Source of the DNA: Gammaproteobacteria bacterium
Lineage (GTDB): Bacteria > Pseudomonadota > Gammaproteobacteria > Enterobacterales > Psychrobiaceae
Length of the DNA stretch: 64,000 bases
Direction of reading: 5' to 3'
NCBI GenBank assembly: GCA_013214965.1
Contig: JABSRU010000005.1
Location: 1-64,000, forward strand
The notes beneath the pieces were generated by a model. The model was not told the DNA's origin. It did not search any database and was given only the letters and a program-made list of their open reading frames with translations. Shown piece by piece: positions 10,843-20,206 of the stretch. A program made the translations under genes and the position numbers. Each line of letters opens with the position of its first letter. Within the stretch, counting starts at the first letter, position 1.

Positions 10843-11616
10843 ATGCAAAGAGATGAAACGTTAAAATTGGATATAGTAGACAAAGCGAAACTGGTCACTT
10901 TAATAGGTAAAGGCATTACTGAGGCTGAACAAGAATTAGTTAGCTTGTATTGGCACGGTATTTTTTTCTTACTCAATAAACGCACCGGTGATAGCGCGTT
11001 GGCCGCTGATTTAACTCAAGACACTTTTATTGTGGTGATTAAGCACGCTCGGCAGGGCACAATTAAAAATCCTCAGGCCATTGGCTGTTATATTCGCCGA
11101 GTTGGTATTAATTTGATGATTGCGCATTTTCGAAAGCAACAACGTCATCACACCGACAATGATGATCAAATTGATATTCACATTCCCTCCCAACTTCCAC
11201 CTTTTAGTCAAGCATTACACGCCGAACAGTTAGTTGAGTTAATGCAAACCCAGCTTAATTTAATGACGGTGCAACGAGATAAAGACATTCTGTATCAGTT
11301 CTATGTATTACAACTCGACAAACTCGATATCTGCGCTGCGCTTGATTTAAGTCCTAATCATTTTGATCGTGTGGTTTTTCGGGCTAGAGCACGTTTAAAA
11401 CAACAGATAATAAACAGCATTAACGACGATGACTGCCAAGAGCGCGGCACTATATTGCTGCAATTAGCCTTAGTCACGATGCTATCCCCGCTAGTCAGTT
11501 CGGTGACGCCAACAAAAATACCTCAATGGGTGGGAGAAATCCCATCCTTGTCTCACTGTAATGATATATCTGCTGCTAAGTTCTGTGTTATCAAGAGCCG
11601 GGGTGCAACATCATGA
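10843..11616 (+). CDS. ECF-like RNA polymerase sigma factor with C-terminal extension
   Basis: The 257-residue protein has a sigma region 2 (LAADLTQDTFIVVIKHARQG, residues ~52-72, and AIGCYIRRVGINLMIAHFRK) and a region 4 helix-turn-helix (LDICAALDLSPNHFDRVVFR, ~155-185). These direct core polymerase to a limited promoter set. After region 4 there is a tail of about 60 residues with a hydrophobic stretch (ILLQLALVTMLSPLVSSV) that is unusual for ECF factors and could be a membrane-proximal or regulatory element. It is the first gene of a tight operon; its stop overlaps the anti-sigma start (ATGA). Start codon spacing to a weak AAGAG site is long, so the exact start is less sure. Confidence 0.85.
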   Translation: MQRDETLKLDIVDKAKLVTLIGKGITEAEQELVSLYWHGIFFLLNKRTGDSALAADLTQDTFIVVIKHARQGTIKNPQAIGCYIRRVGINLMIAHFRKQQRHHTDNDDQIDIHIPSQLPPFSQALHAEQLVELMQTQLNLMTVQRDKDILYQFYVLQLDKLDICAALDLSPNHFDRVVFRARARLKQQIINSINDDDCQERGTILLQLALVTMLSPLVSSVTPTKIPQWVGEIPSLSHCNDISAAKFCVIKSRGATS

Positions 11617-12341
11617 ATGAAAATTTTGAAAATAATGATTTTATGGATCAAAAATATATTGAAGATCATCAAATCGTTGTTCGCTATAGCCGAGGACAAT
11701 TAACGCCTGAGGAAAGTATCGCTTTTGAGATTTATTTACTGGACAAACCTGAACTTATTGAGCAATTAGAGCTTGAACGATTACTGATTAAACATTTACC
11801 TCAGGTTGATTTTAGTCAGCAACAAAAAAAATCAGCTGTTAGCTGGCGGCCGTCATCCATTGCGATATTACAACCGATAACTCGCTGGTTAAGTGCGCCA
11901 ATAGGGGCTAGCGTAACGACTGCTGCGGTGTGTGTGATGTTGTTTAGTGGCTTTTGGCAATTATCAGCGCCAGCGCAATGGGCCGGACAAATATCGGCTA
12001 AGGTCGATATGATTTTTGTCGCGCCAATGCGTAGTAGTGACCGTCGAAACAATAATGCGGTGGCGACGTTAGCCCAATCGAAAAAGAGTGAGTTGACGAT
12101 GCTGGTGATCCAGCCAAGCAATGTCGTCGCAACAAGTTTTGATGTTCGCATTGTTAGCCAACAAAGTGGTGCAATCATTGTTAAACAGACTAAGGTTCAA
12201 ACTCAAGGAATGGGCGATGTCGTTCTTTCTGTCCCCAGTACTTTGTTAACCGCCGGATTGTGGGATATTGAACTGACTCCAACCAACAGTAATCAAGAAA
12301 AAGAAGTGTTGGTGTTAGAGGTAATAGCCATAAAACAATAA
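11613..12341 (+). CDS. membrane-anchored anti-sigma factor-like protein
   Basis: The N-terminal ~70 residues (VVRYSRGQLTPEESIAFEIY...) resemble the anti-sigma/zinc-finger-like 'GxLxPEExxxFExxLL' fold found beside ECF factors, but without the Cys/His zinc ligands. A single membrane helix follows at about residues 97-116. The remaining ~125 residues would be periplasmic and beta-rich (ELTMLVIQPSNVVATSFDVR...). The likely role is to hold the preceding sigma factor inactive until an envelope signal arrives. It overlaps the sigma gene by 4 nt and precedes the peroxidase by 8 nt. The pairing with the sigma factor is inferred from position and layout. Confidence 0.75.
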   Translation: MNENFENNDFMDQKYIEDHQIVVRYSRGQLTPEESIAFEIYLLDKPELIEQLELERLLIKHLPQVDFSQQQKKSAVSWRPSSIAILQPITRWLSAPIGASVTTAAVCVMLFSGFWQLSAPAQWAGQISAKVDMIFVAPMRSSDRRNNNAVATLAQSKKSELTMLVIQPSNVVATSFDVRIVSQQSGAIIVKQTKVQTQGMGDVVLSVPSTLLTAGLWDIELTPTNSNQEKEVLVLEVIAIKQ

Positions 12342-12349
12342 AGGGGAAG

Positions 12350-13711
12350 ATGATGACTGAATTGACAGATCAACAGATTGAAGATTTAACTAGAAGAATG
12401 ACAAAGGTTAGTCCTCATTATAAAAGCAATTTAGATGCCGGTTTAACGTATTTGGGCCAATTAATCTCTCATGATATTGTACCCGCGACGACTAAAGACT
12501 CAGCGTCACGTCATGTCACACCAGCGCTTAATCTTGATAGCTTTTATGGTGACATTTCACTTGATAACTTAAAGCATAATCCTGGTAGTAGCCCTTACCT
12601 TGATGATCATTGTCATGGTTATTTTTATCTTGATGATTGTACTAATTGTGATTTTAAACGCGTTGACAAAAATGGTAAACATATTGCGATAATTCCTGAA
12701 CAGCGTAACGATCAGCATATTATGATCGCCCAATTACAGGTGTTTTGGCTGAATTTTCATAACTATCTATTAAAAAATGAGCTAGTTACCGATGCATTAC
12801 AAGCCAGAAAAGTAGTGACCTTGGTGTTTCAATTAATCGTGATTGAAGAGTTTTTACGTGAACTGTTGACTCGCGATGTGTTCGAGTATTGTTTCAGGCA
12901 AAATCATCAATATGATTTAACTGAAATGTCTGAGTCTATTCCTGATTTTTTTTCCTATGCGAGTTTTCGATTTGGTCATAGCATGCCTCGTACATTTTAT
13001 GAGCTTAAAATGATTCCAAAAGATGCAGAACATAACTTTATTCCTTCTCATGTGTTTAAACCGGTTCCATTAATGGATTTATTTTCTAGTGGTAAAAAAA
13101 TCTGTATAGAAAAAAAGATTGATTGGTCAATGTTTTTCACCTCGGGTCATGATGATATTTTTTGCCAAAAATCATTTGCAATTAATACGCATATTACTGG
13201 AATAGGTATTAAAGAAGACATTAACATCGCTGAGCATGTTGTGAGTGGTAATTTGAAAGTTGCTCGTGCGGTGAAATTACCAACAGGAATTGAAATGGCC
13301 ACTAAAATACTGGAAAAACTACCCAGCTGCTCACATCATCATATCCAGTTAATCACCGATCAAGATTTCGCATCAACAGAATTAGGTCAAGTAGGAATAG
13401 GAATAAAAGAATTACCATTATGGCCATACATATTGTTAGAAGCTGAATTACAAAGTAAGAATAGAACGACCGGTCACGGTGGTCGGCACTTGGCGGGGTT
13501 AGGTAGTATTTTAAATGCGAGTGTTTTAAAGCGTTCAATGATGGCGGCTCAATTCTCGGTGTTTAAGCAGGGGCAATATGATTTTGATGACGTGATTGAG
13601 CGCTTAGGGAAATTTGGTGAAAAATATCAAGATGTTGATAACAGTGCCAAACAATTAACCATGATGACATTAATCACTATGATGAAATCAGGAGAAAATG
13701 ATGCACACTAA
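12350..13711 (+). CDS. animal-type haem peroxidase (An_peroxidase superfamily)
   Basis: The 453-residue protein carries the haem-peroxidase landmarks in order: a distal histidine in GLTYLGQLISHDI (H41), NLDSFYG (~61-66), a catalytic arginine in IPEQRNDQH (R119), QVFWLNFHNYL (~130-140), and the proximal histidine in FRFGHSMP (H210). These match cyclooxygenase/myeloperoxidase-type enzymes ('peroxidase-cyclooxygenase' superfamily), which use hydrogen peroxide to oxidise halides, tyrosines, thiols or lipids. No signal peptide is seen, so it should act in the cytoplasm. GGGGAAG precedes tandem ATGs (12350, 12353). Its last 14 nt overlap the next gene, whose product has a dense cysteine cluster and is a positional candidate substrate or partner. 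The substrate is not deducible. Confidence 0.8.
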   Translation: MMTELTDQQIEDLTRRMTKVSPHYKSNLDAGLTYLGQLISHDIVPATTKDSASRHVTPALNLDSFYGDISLDNLKHNPGSSPYLDDHCHGYFYLDDCTNCDFKRVDKNGKHIAIIPEQRNDQHIMIAQLQVFWLNFHNYLLKNELVTDALQARKVVTLVFQLIVIEEFLRELLTRDVFEYCFRQNHQYDLTEMSESIPDFFSYASFRFGHSMPRTFYELKMIPKDAEHNFIPSHVFKPVPLMDLFSSGKKICIEKKIDWSMFFTSGHDDIFCQKSFAINTHITGIGIKEDINIAEHVVSGNLKVARAVKLPTGIEMATKILEKLPSCSHHHIQLITDQDFASTELGQVGIGIKELPLWPYILLEAELQSKNRTTGHGGRHLAGLGSILNASVLKRSMMAAQFSVFKQGQYDFDDVIERLGKFGEKYQDVDNSAKQLTMMTLITMMKSGENDAH

Positions 13712-14264
13712 ATTTTCATGTATTAAGGATTGGGCATCGGTGCCATCAGATCCAGAACGTCGGGTAACCCAGTCGTGGAATCCGTTAATTGATCCCGAAG
13801 TGTTAATTTATTCGCCGTATCCTGAAGGTGACTATCTAGTGGCATCCTATGTGATGGAACCGACCGATGCGAAGCCTTACATCAAGCAAATATTGACAGG
13901 TGGCGATTGGGAACCATTAATGCGTTATGTTGCTGGCCAGTTAAAATTAAAACTTGAATCCGAATGTCGATGCTTGGTGGTGTGTCACTGTCCTTGTCCT
14001 TGTCCTTGTCAATCGAGTTGCCATTGTAGTGCCTCCCAAAAAACGTATTATTTGATTGATGAAAATTTTAATCAAAACGGTGATGGTAATTCTCCCCTGA
14101 TTTTTGGCAAGGTTAATAATTGGGAAATAAAATCTTGGCGCGTTGATGTTAATCGAGAAAGCCAAGAGTTTGTTGATAGCCTAACGTGGGTTAATACGAA
14201 TAAGGATAAAAATATAAAGTCGGAAGATACCACGCACAGTTGGCGGCTCTATGATGAGCGTTAA
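13698..14264 (+). CDS. protein with a nine-cysteine cluster, unknown function
   Basis: I do not recognise this 188-residue protein. Its outstanding feature is nine cysteines between residues 90 and 110 (C90, 92, 96, 98, 100, 102, 104, 108, 110), including CHCPCPCPC. The DNA for the Cys-Pro run is an imperfect tandem hexamer (TGTCCT). The flanks look globular (WNPLIDPEVLIYSP..., then KTYYLIDENF and WEIKSWRVDV). Such a cluster could bind metal or be oxidised or crosslinked. There is no signal peptide. The start overlaps the peroxidase end by 14 nt and the CHAT gene follows after 8 nt, so the three are co-translated or nearly so. Function as peroxidase substrate or redox sensor is inference. Confidence 0.75.
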   Translation: MMHTKFSCIKDWASVPSDPERRVTQSWNPLIDPEVLIYSPYPEGDYLVASYVMEPTDAKPYIKQILTGGDWEPLMRYVAGQLKLKLESECRCLVVCHCPCPCPCQSSCHCSASQKTYYLIDENFNQNGDGNSPLIFGKVNNWEIKSWRVDVNRESQEFVDSLTWVNTNKDKNIKSEDTTHSWRLYDER

Positions 14265-14272
14265 CCTATTGA

Positions 14273-17200
14273 ATGCCTAATTATAAACTTTGGTGTGCAT
14301 ATTCATTAGTCTTACTGCTATTTAGTGTTGGCGTACATGCACAACAGCAATTAATATTGCGAGATGTTCACTTAAAACCTCAACAAGTGAGGGTGTTTCT
14401 GACCGCAGGGCAGGGCATGAATGCTGACTTAAGCTTAAGCCAACAGGGACGTTTGTGGTTAGTTCAGGGGGATGCTCGCGTTTCTAGTGTACGTGAATTT
14501 ACGGTACTGGGTCCTTTTAAAACGCCAACGGATATTCAAATAGCATTAACGAAAGACTATACCCATCGCAATCTATTTCAATTAAAGCTGACTGAAATTA
14601 CGAAGCTTAATCCTACAAAAATTGCTGACTACCGCCTTTTATTTCTTGCTTCACAGTTATGGTACAAAAATAGTCAAGAGCCTCGTCAACAAGCGATTAA
14701 ACTATTGCAACAGCGACTCGAATTAACGAGTAAGCAATCGCCATTGACTGATGAAATCGCTTTATCATTAGCGCATATGACGAGAGGCATTAAGGATGAA
14801 ATTGCTTGGGGTTATCTAAATAAGGCCGCTATAGAGACCTTGGTATTAAAAGATGAATTGGCACTACTACAATCTTCGATAACCGCTCAGCTCGACAATC
14901 ACACTTTGATCGCAAAGCAATGTCAATATCTTGATTATTTAAGCTCGGCTCGCCCTAACACGTTATATCATCGCTTTGAGTCAATTAAGGCTAACGTTAA
15001 ATTAGCCATTTCGCTCATTGAATATACGCGTCATTCGTTATCACTCAATGATAGTAAACGTCTAGAAGAGATGGCCGAATGTCATCAGGTGTTGCCAGGA
15101 ATAAATAAAGAAACAGTAACCTCAAGCGCGAAAAAATTGTTAGATAGTGCGCAATTAGCAGTGGCGCTGTCGCCAGAATTACGGTTAGAGACTAATGTTT
15201 TTGGCGGTTACTGGCATTATTATAATGTAACTAATGAACATGTTGCCGCAGAAAAAGTCGCACGCTTGGCAATTAGTGAACAACATCAGGTTGTTGATCT
15301 ATCATTGTTGCGAGATCAATATAGCCGTCTGGCCACTTCATTGATTAGGCAGGGTGATTTGTTATCCGCTTTATATTACTTACGATTAAAATTAAATTTA
15401 GTAAATAGCGCGATGTCTGGAGAGGAGCAGTCAGCAATCTATTTTAATTTAGCCTATAACTATCGGCTGCTAGGGGAAAAAGCGTTGGCTCGGCGCTATT
15501 TTAAGCGGGCGTTGGCTATCGATGAACTCACTGAAGGAATTGTTGATTGGCAGCTTGATAAACATTGCACCAGCTCCGGGATAAATACCGCGATGGTGAT
15601 TTCACAATTAGGCATCTTAGATCGACTCGATAATAACTTAGCTAGAGCTTACAAAATGCACTTATGTGCACGGAATGTTTTTAGTCACACAGATCAATAT
15701 TATGAAATAGTGGCGATGCTGGAAACCGCGAAAGATGAGTTGTCACTTGGGTTAATTGTCGAATCTAAAGTGTCGGCTCAACAAGTGTTAGCCGATCCAC
15801 GCGTGATGCAACCTCAGCGATTAGATGCGCTATTAGTGTTATTAGAATTAGCGATTATCGATCGTGATAATGAAAGCGTCGAGCAACTGACCGAGGAAAT
15901 GTCGCGACGGTTGGGTTATCAAAACATTTATCAATCATCAAACCTTGAGCAAGCTATTAGTAATTATCCCGTACGACAAATTCAATTTTTTGAGTTATTG
16001 GTGCGCTATTATAGTGACAATGTATATCGTGCGGATATGATCCGTATCTTTGGCGATAAAGCGTTATCATTAATAGCAACTATCAACGCTAATATTGAAA
16101 ATACTCAAGCGTGGTCTGCCGCTCAATATTCATTGTTGAGTCAATATATTGATGCGCTGTTTCAAAAGGGTGCCATTAGTCATCGGGCTCATTATCCTAA
16201 AATATTTGAAATTCTAGAACGTTATTATTCGATTGATCTCACGAGAGAACGTTTGAAGTATGTGACTAACATGACGACGCCAGAATCTGCTGATAAATTA
16301 CAGCGATTATGGGCTGCTCGGTTAGATGCACAGCGAGCCGTTATTTCTGCTTCTTCGGAGAACAGAGATTTAGCGCGAAGCTTAGCGGATGCTGCCAATG
16401 ATCAATATCGTGCTTTCCTAATGGTTAAATCAGAGCGCGAAATCAAGCCAGTTATTAATCAATCGATTAAAGATATTCAGCGAAAAATGCCAGTTGGTGA
16501 TATTTTTATTCGGTATTTTATTGATCGTCGCGGGAGTTTTTCGTTAGTTATCACTAAAACACATTGGTCAATTAACCCCTTAGCAGACCAAGCTCAGATC
16601 CGGAAATCGACACAGGCATTCATGGCTCAGTTAGATCGCCGAAATTACCGCCAGCATATTATTGATAGTGATTTATCAAGCATCTTACCGCTTAAGTTAC
16701 TGCGCTCAGGTCAATATCGTCGTTTGATCTTCGTCGCCGACGACACCCTGCATAAAGTGCCTTTTTCTGCACTAAATATTGGAACTGCCAATAATCATCA
16801 ATACCAACCGCTGATAAATAACGTCGAATTAATTAGAGCTTATTCCGCCCAGAATTATTATCTCCCATTACAACACCAGTCGCTGTCCCGGATCAAAAAA
16901 ACGGCTGTGGTTAAAGATCTTGTGATGTTTGCCGATCCTATCTTTAAAAGCGCAGTTTCAAATACAGCAGGACAAGGGCGAGATATGAAATTTAAACAAT
17001 GGCTTAATCAACTTCCTCGGTTGCACCATACCGCGAGGGAAGCGGCGACAATTAGCAAATTATTTTCAATCAATTCGGTGATTACCGCATTAGAGCATCA
17101 AGCCACTAACCAATTTCTAATGTCAGATATTGCCCGTCGTGCCAAAATTTTACATATTGCGACCCATGGTTATTTCAATCCGAAAACCCCCGATATTGTT

Positions 17201-17611
17201 GGTTTAGTCACCGCGGCGCAAGCTGATGATAATGGTCAATCCAGTGGTTTTTTAAGCTTAGAGGAGTTACTGAGTAAGCCTTTTTATAATGATTTGGTGG
17301 TAATAAGTGGTTGTGAAACGATGTTGGGACAATATTATAAAGGGTCGGGTAATCGCAGCATTATTCGTGGCTTATTATCGCAAGGGGCGACATCGGTGAT
17401 TGGGACATTGTGGCAGGTAGCCGATCGACCTACGGCGCAATTTATGACGTTATTTTATCGTCATCTGAAACAAACACGGGGTAATATTGCTAAAGCACTA
17501 CAACTGACTAAACAGCAGTTTGCCCAATATGGACGTTATCGTCATCCTAAATATTGGGCAGGGTTTGTCTTAACCTCATCCCATACCCCGCTAGTGCAGG
17601 GTATGGATTAA
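14273..17611 (+). CDS. exported TPR-CHAT caspase-like protease
   Basis: The 1112-residue protein has a signal peptide (MPNYKLWCAYSLVLLLFSVGVHAQQ), a long helical middle with tetratricopeptide-like repeats (for example SAIYFNLAYNYRLLGEKALA near residues 385-405), and a C-terminal CHAT domain from about residue 730. The CHAT catalytic dyad is visible: histidine in LHIATHG (H965) and cysteine in VVISGCET (C1014), with the downstream GLLSQGATSVIGTLW and YWAGFVL motifs. CHAT proteins are clan CD proteases related to separase and caspases. Export to the periplasm separates it from most CHAT effectors acting in cytoplasm. It is the last gene of the five-gene operon. Target proteins are unknown. Confidence 0.9.
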   Translation: MPNYKLWCAYSLVLLLFSVGVHAQQQLILRDVHLKPQQVRVFLTAGQGMNADLSLSQQGRLWLVQGDARVSSVREFTVLGPFKTPTDIQIALTKDYTHRNLFQLKLTEITKLNPTKIADYRLLFLASQLWYKNSQEPRQQAIKLLQQRLELTSKQSPLTDEIALSLAHMTRGIKDEIAWGYLNKAAIETLVLKDELALLQSSITAQLDNHTLIAKQCQYLDYLSSARPNTLYHRFESIKANVKLAISLIEYTRHSLSLNDSKRLEEMAECHQVLPGINKETVTSSAKKLLDSAQLAVALSPELRLETNVFGGYWHYYNVTNEHVAAEKVARLAISEQHQVVDLSLLRDQYSRLATSLIRQGDLLSALYYLRLKLNLVNSAMSGEEQSAIYFNLAYNYRLLGEKALARRYFKRALAIDELTEGIVDWQLDKHCTSSGINTAMVISQLGILDRLDNNLARAYKMHLCARNVFSHTDQYYEIVAMLETAKDELSLGLIVESKVSAQQVLADPRVMQPQRLDALLVLLELAIIDRDNESVEQLTEEMSRRLGYQNIYQSSNLEQAISNYPVRQIQFFELLVRYYSDNVYRADMIRIFGDKALSLIATINANIENTQAWSAAQYSLLSQYIDALFQKGAISHRAHYPKIFEILERYYSIDLTRERLKYVTNMTTPESADKLQRLWAARLDAQRAVISASSENRDLARSLADAANDQYRAFLMVKSEREIKPVINQSIKDIQRKMPVGDIFIRYFIDRRGSFSLVITKTHWSINPLADQAQIRKSTQAFMAQLDRRNYRQHIIDSDLSSILPLKLLRSGQYRRLIFVADDTLHKVPFSALNIGTANNHQYQPLINNVELIRAYSAQNYYLPLQHQSLSRIKKTAVVKDLVMFADPIFKSAVSNTAGQGRDMKFKQWLNQLPRLHHTAREAATISKLFSINSVITALEHQATNQFLMSDIARRAKILHIATHGYFNPKTPDIVGLVTAAQADDNGQSSGFLSLEELLSKPFYNDLVVISGCETMLGQYYKGSGNRSIIRGLLSQGATSVIGTLWQVADRPTAQFMTLFYRHLKQTRGNIAKALQLTKQQFAQYGRYRHPKYWAGFVLTSSHTPLVQGMD
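17581..17606. terminator. weak hairpin over the stop codon region of the CHAT gene
   Basis: CCATACCC (17581-17588) pairs perfectly with GGGTATGG (17599-17606) across a 10-nt loop, overlapping the last codons of the CHAT gene. Only a scattered T-run follows (near 17616), so termination is uncertain. The next 50 nt repeat AAGTACT-like motifs. Confidence 0.3.
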
Positions 17612-17666
17612 GCACTATTTTAAAGTACGGTTGCTAAGGACTATTTCTAAGTACTATATTTAAGTA

Positions 17667-20206
17667 CTACTGTTTAGTGCCATTGACTAATACTTTGGCA
17701 TTAATACTCTCTTCTTGACCTGTTGGGGTGTTGACCTTAACCATAAATTTGAAATCAGCATGGATAATTGGGTAAAGTTGCATGATATATTTATTACCCT
17801 CATCATCAGTTTCAATGAAATTTAACAGCCCATTAGCATCAACCTGCCAGGTAATTGTTGAGGTGAAGCTATTATCGCAACAAACCGAGGTACCAGTGCC
17901 ATCTTGATTAAAGACAATGGTGTATTTTTGACTGTTTTTGATGTCTATATCATCAAATATCCAAGTGCCGACGACAGCTTCTTTAGTAAAAGGCATGCCA
18001 TGGATCAAGGTGACCTGCTGCGTGTTACCGTCTTGATCTTTTAGGGTTACATTAAAGGCTTTATTCGGGTTGTCATTAAGTGCTGAGTTTTGCCATAGCG
18101 ATGACCATTGACTTAAGTCATCTTCAAAGATGGTATTGAGCCGTGCTTTAATGTAGTAGCTATCATTTAACTTAGGATCGTCAGTGCCTGTAATGACAGA
18201 ATATTCGAGCACACTGGTGACACCATTCGCGCTAGCCAAAGGTAACCAAAAACGACTGCGAGTGTGGCGACGATTGCTGCCATATAACTTAACCCAGCCA
18301 TCGACTAACTCCCAGTTTGAGTGTGGACCAAAATTAGCGATACAATCTTGGGTGTTATCAGTACATATATCGCGATAGTTTTTATCGGTAGCGGTGATGC
18401 GGGTCATCGTGCCGTCGGTCTTGAACCAATAACCATTAATATTGTTTGGTAATACCTTGCCATTTCTGTCAAAAGAGGATGCCAGCCAGCTAAGATTGCC
18501 AGGGGTTAAGTATGTTGGTAATTTGGTGACCAACGATGCATTAAATGTATCACTGCTACTACTCTGCTTGGCAATAGGTTTAACGAAGCGATGGACTAGT
18601 TGATCATCTTGATAATATTCAACAATGGTGGTGTAAAAAAATCCGTTATCTTGCACCGGAATATAACGGTAGCGATTTTTATCTTGGTTTAACTCAATCA
18701 CGCCATCAACTAACGACCAGCTGATATTTTCAGTGGCGAATTTTGTCGTGGTGCTGCCGTCATTATGTAATTGCACTAAATCATGAAAGTTCGCTTGATA
18801 TTGCTCACCATTAAGAAAATAATCGGCTACTGAATAGTAGATTGGCAATGCCCATGTACCAACTGCATCGGCTTGGGTTAGCGCAATGGTTTTTAATCCG
18901 GCGTTAAACAACACTGAGTTTGGTTGGTTGGTGGTTATTGTGGTTATTGCAGCGGCACCAGTCCAACCTTGAGCGCTCAGCCAGTTTGAATCGATTGAAT
19001 AGGTCGCGGTTCTACTGGCGATAACTTGACCGACATTATTGGCACTAGAGACTAGTTGAAAAGCGAGGCTGCTAGTTTTTACTTGCATGGTAAACGTTGC
19101 AGAAGGGATTTTTTTAGCTTGATGTTGCTCAATTAAAAAATCAATCAGAGATTTCTCAAAGCCTACTTCATTAACGAGATAATCATCATTGTAGATATTT
19201 TCACGGATATCCATGGTATGCGCTGTGAGCGCTAGCGTTAAGCTGTTATCTCTTAGTTGCCAAGTTAATTTGCTTGATTGATTTATCTCTAAAAATTGCT
19301 GACTATAAAAGCCCGTACCATCGGCATTTAAGCTTAAGCTATCACCGCTATATAAAGGCTGTCCTAGTTGGACTAATGGCGTGATGATACTACGGCCAAC
19401 AATCATCGAATTGACGATGCCAGGCATCACTTTGGGATCTTTTAAGGTCGCTGCGACGGCTTGAGCAAAGTCCGCTTTATATTTGTCGCTTTGCTGGCCA
19501 TTACTGTCAATGGCACCATTTTGGGTTAAATAGGTGATCACTATATTGACGGTCGACTTGGTTTTGTTGTTTAACAAGGTCAAGGTCGTTTGTCCTGCCT
19601 CAAGGGTATAATCGCTATGATCAACAATCAGTTTAATAAATGCCGCTAAATCGAGTAATTTATCACTACTTATCGCCATTTCTGTATCAGCTTGTTGTTG
19701 ATTAGTGGCTGGTGCTACCCCGTTATTTATTTCAACGCTAAGCAAATGTTTCGCCGTACTGAGGTGCGTGACATTGAGTCGTTGATTGGTGTCACTTTTT
19801 ATTTCACCATCGCTGGCTGACAAATAGAGAGCGTCGATGGTACTGACACTACTGACTAATTCTGCATGGGCTTGGTTATCTTTACCTTTGGCATTAATGA
19901 CGACCATTTCTTTGGTGGCTATTTGCTTTTCGGTTAAAGAGAGCGGTAAACGGTAACTGCCGTCGGCGTCGGCGGTGGTGGTAAATTTTCTCCTGCAATC
20001 GCTACTGTGATACTCGCGTTAGCAATAGGCGCATCGGTGATGACTCCCTCGAGAATTAACTGTTTTTTAATCGGAGCAGTAGGCTCTGGAGCTGGTGGCG
20101 TGGTCGACTCTGAAGACGAACCACCACAAGCGGTTAAATAAACGCTAAATAAGCCGAGGGCGAAAAGTCGCAGTTGGTTGCTGGATTTATGCTGATAATT
20201 ACACAT
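17667..20206 (-). pseudogene. large lipoprotein gene with a single frameshift
   Basis: From ATG 20206 (AAGGAATATAAC before it) the product has a lipoprotein signal ending LTAC-GGSSS, a Ser/Thr/Pro linker and a carboxypeptidase-regulatory-like domain beginning LILEGVITDAPIANASITVA. In this frame it runs into a stop at 19934-19936. In the other frame the expected continuation of that domain (TTTADADGSYRLPLSLTEKQ) follows directly and stays open for about 760 residues to 17667. Restoring one base in the AAAATTTACC stretch near 19980-19987 rejoins them into a protein of about 850 residues. The long part contains several repeated 'WQLRDNSLTL / WSLVDGVIEL / WELVDGWVKL' units. It is converging on the CHAT operon. 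It is either a recent pseudogene, a sequencing slip, or a phase-variable gene; the short base run makes the last less likely. Confidence 0.82.

Follow-up and report, generated by a model that had tools for sequence, protein, structure and literature searches.

What role could a tight cluster of cysteines play in a small protein encoded next to a haem peroxidase? The question arises from gene X (13698..14264, forward strand) of the window, which is the whole 64,000-nucleotide stretch of gammaproteobacterial DNA analysed here. The gene encodes a protein of 188 aa, predicted to form a beta barrel or roll, without a signal peptide, a TM segment or a match in Pfam, NCBIfam or PADLOC. Searches against plasmid and phage sequences gave no match, and none was obtained with the defence-system models. 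The weak matches to X (E values from 6 × 10−4 up to 0.1, several of them containing stops) were ascribed to chance. The reading frame is genuine: two conserved genes flank it, and other species have homologues in the same position.

Nine of the ten cysteines of X fall within residues 90-110 (CRCLVVCHCPCPCPCQSSCHC), at positions 90, 92, 96, 98, 100, 102, 104, 108 and 110. The segment as a whole comprises residues 90-111 (CRCLVVCHCPCPCPCQSSCHCS; 13965..14030, forward strand) and is predicted to be a floppy loop separating the beta strands at 84-90 and 115-121. Both the nine cysteines and the codon start at 13965 that the original prediction had given were borne out by counting, as was the Cys-Pro run encoded by tandem TGTCCT, which is slightly longer (CPCPCPC) than the CPCP first noted. 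At a cysteine frequency of 1.06%, taken from the window, on which the genome-wide codon and repeat statistics also rest, the chance of at least nine cysteines in 21 residues is 4 × 10−13 per position and ~6 × 10−7 over ~1.4 million residues. The density is far beyond chance.

X is the fourth of five genes, all on the forward strand. They encode an ECF sigma factor (10843..11616; Sigma70_r2 and sigma70-ECF), an anti-sigma-like protein with one predicted TM segment near residue 93 (11613..12341), the haem peroxidase (12350..13711), X itself, the start of which overlaps the peroxidase gene by 14 nt, and an exported TPR-CHAT protease-like protein (14273..17611) with an N-terminal signal peptide and His (ILHIATHG) and Cys (ISGCET) motifs. 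Compared with its Arenicella homologue, the sigma factor is longer, and its C-terminal extension (window 11443-11616) includes a hydrophobic stretch at residues 204-222. The interval separating the CHAT gene from the convergent gene contains a degenerate tandem repeat of 13 nt (TAAGTACTATTTC, 4.7 copies, window 17609-17669).

The TGTCCT hexamer is present as 3.7 perfect copies at 13989..14010 on the forward strand (TRF, 100% match, score 44), encoding the CPCPCPC core, and there was no second occurrence of TGTCCTTGTCCT in the 4.25-Mb genome. The 66-nt segment showed a 6-periodicity of 0.50, compared with a mean of 0.485 in random codings of the same peptide, and 42% of the recodings reached 0.50. 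Outside the core, the peptide fully accounts for the 6-nt periodicity, and the recoding control did not support the whole Cys segment as a decayed hexamer array. Identical codons throughout (seven) were found in the CPCPCPC core only (p ~0.008 by chance in the recoding control); a recent local duplication of this 22-nt core is therefore likely, and the part of the loop that carries it is, judged by its codons, recent.

Such a perfect core with identical codons fits a mostly neutral repeat expansion in an insertion-tolerant loop, the cysteines being a by-product of the TGT in the hexamer. This account is weakened by the periodicity outside the core, for which the peptide is sufficient, and by the codons themselves. 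Cysteine occupies nine of the 11 odd codons of the segment, two of them as synonymous TGC, and fewer nucleotides differ from the hexamer unit in these odd codons (8/33) than in the intervening codons (17/33; Fisher p 0.04). The retention of the cysteines while the alternate codons diverged is somewhat more in keeping with selection for cysteine than with the decay of a pure array.

The same repeat had been read as a slippage-prone hexamer that gains or loses units and so changes the cysteine number in frame. The hexamer is indeed tandem and in frame, with its core apparently duplicated in the DNA, and as in a simple-sequence contingency locus the repeat lies within coding sequence; however, it amounts to just 3.7 units over 22 nt, and at the DNA level the longer Cys pattern does not form a repeat. 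A search of nine congeners and about 460 other genomes brought up no strain or homologue in which the copy number differs, and in none of these was there an X with the Cys cluster, so that repeat variation no longer serves as an argument for a metal-binding or redox segment. The slippage idea is weak, and a contingency repeat whose copy number differs between cells, tuning the number of cysteines, is very improbable.

The homologues indicate how the loop sits within the protein. At the same operon place in other species, the small proteins align with X along the scaffold and the Cys block appears as a gap. The shared scaffold marks include a (S)YHP-like motif, Trp 71, W-x-I-x-x-W at 142-147, L-T-W at 162-164 and a C-terminal S-W, while pairwise identity among the proteins in the X position is only 12-27%. 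Sixteen homologues clearly belong to the family; the remaining small proteins were assigned by position only, and those of loci L080, L103-L110, L112, L114 and L115 are too distant for confident alignment with X. The stretch between the two strands (84-90 to 115-121) has 30 residues in X versus 4-14 in the 16 aligned homologues, which contain at most three cysteines per 21 residues. The Cys cluster is therefore, on this alignment, a lineage-specific loop insertion, and the Cys loop is known from one genome only. Homologues lacking the cluster had been named beforehand as counter-evidence to the idea of repeat variation, and these 16 proteins are of that kind. The variation in loop length within the family does fit a neutral expansion.

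An AlphaFold model of X, built with 17 sequences, gave a pLDDT of 82.8 and a pTM of 0.79, with eight strands and short helices in a small barrel or roll; an earlier run with 10 sequences (pLDDT of 46.6) was set aside. The confidence was ~90 in the core and ~55 in the Cys loop, and the floppiness of the modelled loop again fits neutral expansion. No significant PDB or viral match to the model was found by Foldseek. The top Foldseek row was the similar small barrel or roll of Bdellovibrio Bd0675 (7oc9; E value of 0.09, Z of 5.7), a likeness that may go no further than a common arrangement. The function of Bd0675, a secreted beta-roll with disulphide bonds, is unknown (PMC8616854). With VIA-align, Z scores against many small barrels, including those of FABP/CRBP and avidin, reached 6.4 at most, and may likewise reflect only a common arrangement.

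Could the neighbouring peroxidase account for the cysteines? The enzyme belongs to the peroxidase-cyclooxygenase superfamily (An_peroxidase, PF03098), with a score of 39.8 bits against a cut-off of 25. The distal Gln and His (Q37, H41), the distal Arg (R119) and the proximal His (H210) are invariant in eight homologues, D42 is also conserved, and the region of R119 and H210 aligns with myeloperoxidase and peroxinectin A. Like the short bacterial 'peroxicins' (PMC4420034), it has a GQxxxHD distal motif, a distal Arg and a proximal His in FRFGH. The Asp (DHD) and Glu (RxxE) that form haem esters characterise most members of the superfamily, though not every one (PMC4420034). Unlike that signature, the window peroxidase reads S-H-D and R-N-D-Q, with S40 and Q122 replacing the ester-forming Asp and Glu; covalent haem is therefore not expected, and the enzyme probably holds its haem non-covalently.

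With its key residues conserved and its gene overlapping that of X, the peroxidase might deliver products that oxidise the cysteines of X, the loop acting as a thiol redox switch or oxidant sink, and nine closely placed cysteines would be oxidisable. The distribution of Cys clusters speaks against this. The 28 other peroxidase-linked small proteins, a few of them near-identical, have at most three cysteines in any 21 residues, whereas Cys-clustered small proteins with no detectable homology to X are found in four peroxidase-free sister operons, three in Arenicella and one in Marinicella (CEDKCECCCCG, CECNCNCCCCGG, CEKCCCECCCP and CSCESNDCNCLGC). The adjacency of the peroxidase, which the original prediction had offered as an argument for a redox-modified or metal-binding segment, thus loses its force: the Cys cluster does not track the peroxidase, their tie is doubtful, and a peroxidase-linked redox role is disfavoured.

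The three Arenicella operons are arranged as CHAT, sigma, anti-sigma and small protein, with no adjacent peroxidase. Their small proteins (152-153 aa; L054:4891-5349, L055:5303-5764 and L071:11319-11780) are 42-48% identical overall and keep the C-terminal Cys cluster; they also share a Gly-rich end, DGDxGxGG. Homology between X and the Arenicella Cys-tailed protein was considered and rejected: the hhalign probability was ~0, and the BLOSUM score beat shuffled sequences only through the cysteines, 4-18% of shuffles reaching the score once these were masked. The Marinicella sediminis operon comprises sigma, anti-sigma and CHAT genes followed by two paralogous small proteins, one of which has an N-terminal Cys cluster. 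Both paralogues (L077:14543-16407) end in SHDGTIHP, and a trypsin-like gene follows them.

At least five cysteines per 21 residues were found in five of 273 ORFs (≥100 aa, 14 loci), and all five were small proteins of these operons, X included. The enrichment (Fisher 2 × 10−7, or 9 × 10−5 with the three Arenicella proteins collapsed to one) comes from a small set and a mechanical ORF list, in which the loci were picked through the sigma factor and the window itself through its cysteines, so that two independent lineages remain once the window is removed. This recurrence in sister operons counts against a by-product of neutral expansion as well. We consider neutral expansion and a peroxidase-driven redox role equally likely, and each of them rather unlikely.

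We tentatively favour a metal-thiolate site, carried by the exchangeable small protein of the operon, as the explanation of the Cys loop; the retention of the cysteines and the recurrence of unrelated Cys clusters in the sister operons are in its favour. Sequence and model speak for a cytoplasmic beta protein to which a flexible, thiol-rich loop has been added. CxC and HxC spacings are a usual mark of soft-metal binding in a reducing compartment. We infer that X is cytoplasmic because it has no signal peptide, and that its loop binds metal because of its CxC/HxC pattern. In the proposed scheme, X would be a small interchangeable 'cargo' protein of the operon, in which one beta-hairpin loop has been lengthened by ~20 residues in this lineage into a CxC-rich segment of reduced thiols; the loop could bind ions of soft metals such as Zn or Cu(I), and the conserved beta scaffold would thereby have acquired a metal-binding function. 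Metal-binding templates gave no match to X, and its cysteines follow no named metal motif. The clustered cysteines could equally be redox-active instead of metal-binding, and the recent origin of the duplicated core is a further point against the metal site. A metal-binding or thiol-reactive segment is still the best reading, but the peroxidase and repeat-variation arguments once attached to it fail. X shares with metallothioneins the dense CxC cysteines in a flexible segment; it differs from such small, largely Cys-rich metal-binding sequences in that it is predicted to be a folded beta protein of 188 aa with 5% cysteine (10 residues), nearly all in one loop.

For the remainder of the operon, the nearest precedent for a CHAT, anti-sigma and sigma mechanism is, by analogy, the CASP locus, in which a TPR-CHAT protease cleaves Csx30, a protein that binds and inhibits an ECF sigma factor (PMC10028731). 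By this comparison, the exported CHAT protein might target the part of the membrane anti-sigma protein that faces the periplasm and so release the sigma factor, which would place the operon under the control of envelope signals through the two proteins. The Craspase/CASP locus (Csx29 TPR-CHAT, Csx30 and ECF CASP-sigma; PMC10028731) shares with the window a TPR-CHAT protein, an ECF sigma factor and a sigma regulator. In contrast to the cytoplasmic CHAT of Craspase, which lacks a signal peptide, the CHAT protein here has a signal-peptide-like N-terminus in all 12 operons checked (the window and 11 others). The anti-sigma protein has a TM segment, the place of the cargo is taken by the haem peroxidase and the small beta protein, and no Cas7-11 (gRAMP) gene was seen within the five-gene row. 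A literature search, with most subscription journals outside its scope, found no report joining an ECF sigma factor, CHAT and a haem peroxidase; only the Craspase papers join CHAT with a sigma factor. The operon consists of known parts in an apparently undescribed type, plus a lineage-specific Cys loop.

A peroxidase search recovered the same five-gene order in an uncultured Arenicella, with 47% identity to the window for the sigma factor, 53% over 49 residues for the anti-sigma protein and 31% for CHAT. The sigma-alignment scan gave 22 loci in Aliiglaciecola, Alteromonas, Aestuariibacter, Marinicella, Arenicella, Lysobacteraceae and MAGs, many with the same or a related row. A single-sequence peroxidase scan of genome contigs gave no match. 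In the family of Aliiglaciecola, the peroxidase was found at E ≤ 1 × 10−30 in 27 of 347 sampled genomes, most of these loci having the sigma and anti-sigma genes upstream and a small gene and the start of a CHAT-like gene downstream. The five-gene row is thus conserved in Alteromonadaceae, Arenicella, Marinicella and MAGs. Among the ten genomes (one genus) of the window's own family, the operon is present in the window genome only, X being absent from the nine congeners; it is therefore patchy and probably mobile.

A broader proposal, which we regard as possible but doubtful, is that of a widespread, apparently undescribed marine gammaproteobacterial system of ECF sigma factor, TM anti-sigma protein and exported TPR-CHAT in which the peroxidase is optional and the small beta protein variable, with Cys clusters gained independently at least three times and metal or thiol chemistry forming part of the cargo function. 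Here a sigma/anti-sigma pair is linked, outside CRISPR, to an exported CHAT protease of caspase-like type, and the same operon includes both an animal-type haem peroxidase that looks active from its residues and a small protein that is uncharacterised. Should the recurrent Cys clusters prove functional, they would offer a clue to the cargo chemistry, and metal content or thiol state would provide a simple assay for a system with no assigned function. In two genomes of the Aliiglaciecola family (L101, on the reverse strand, and L102:1357-3345), the peroxidase ORF is 622-662 aa long and the CHAT-side gene comes directly after it. These long ORFs, which have no separate small gene, are possible peroxidase-X fusions.
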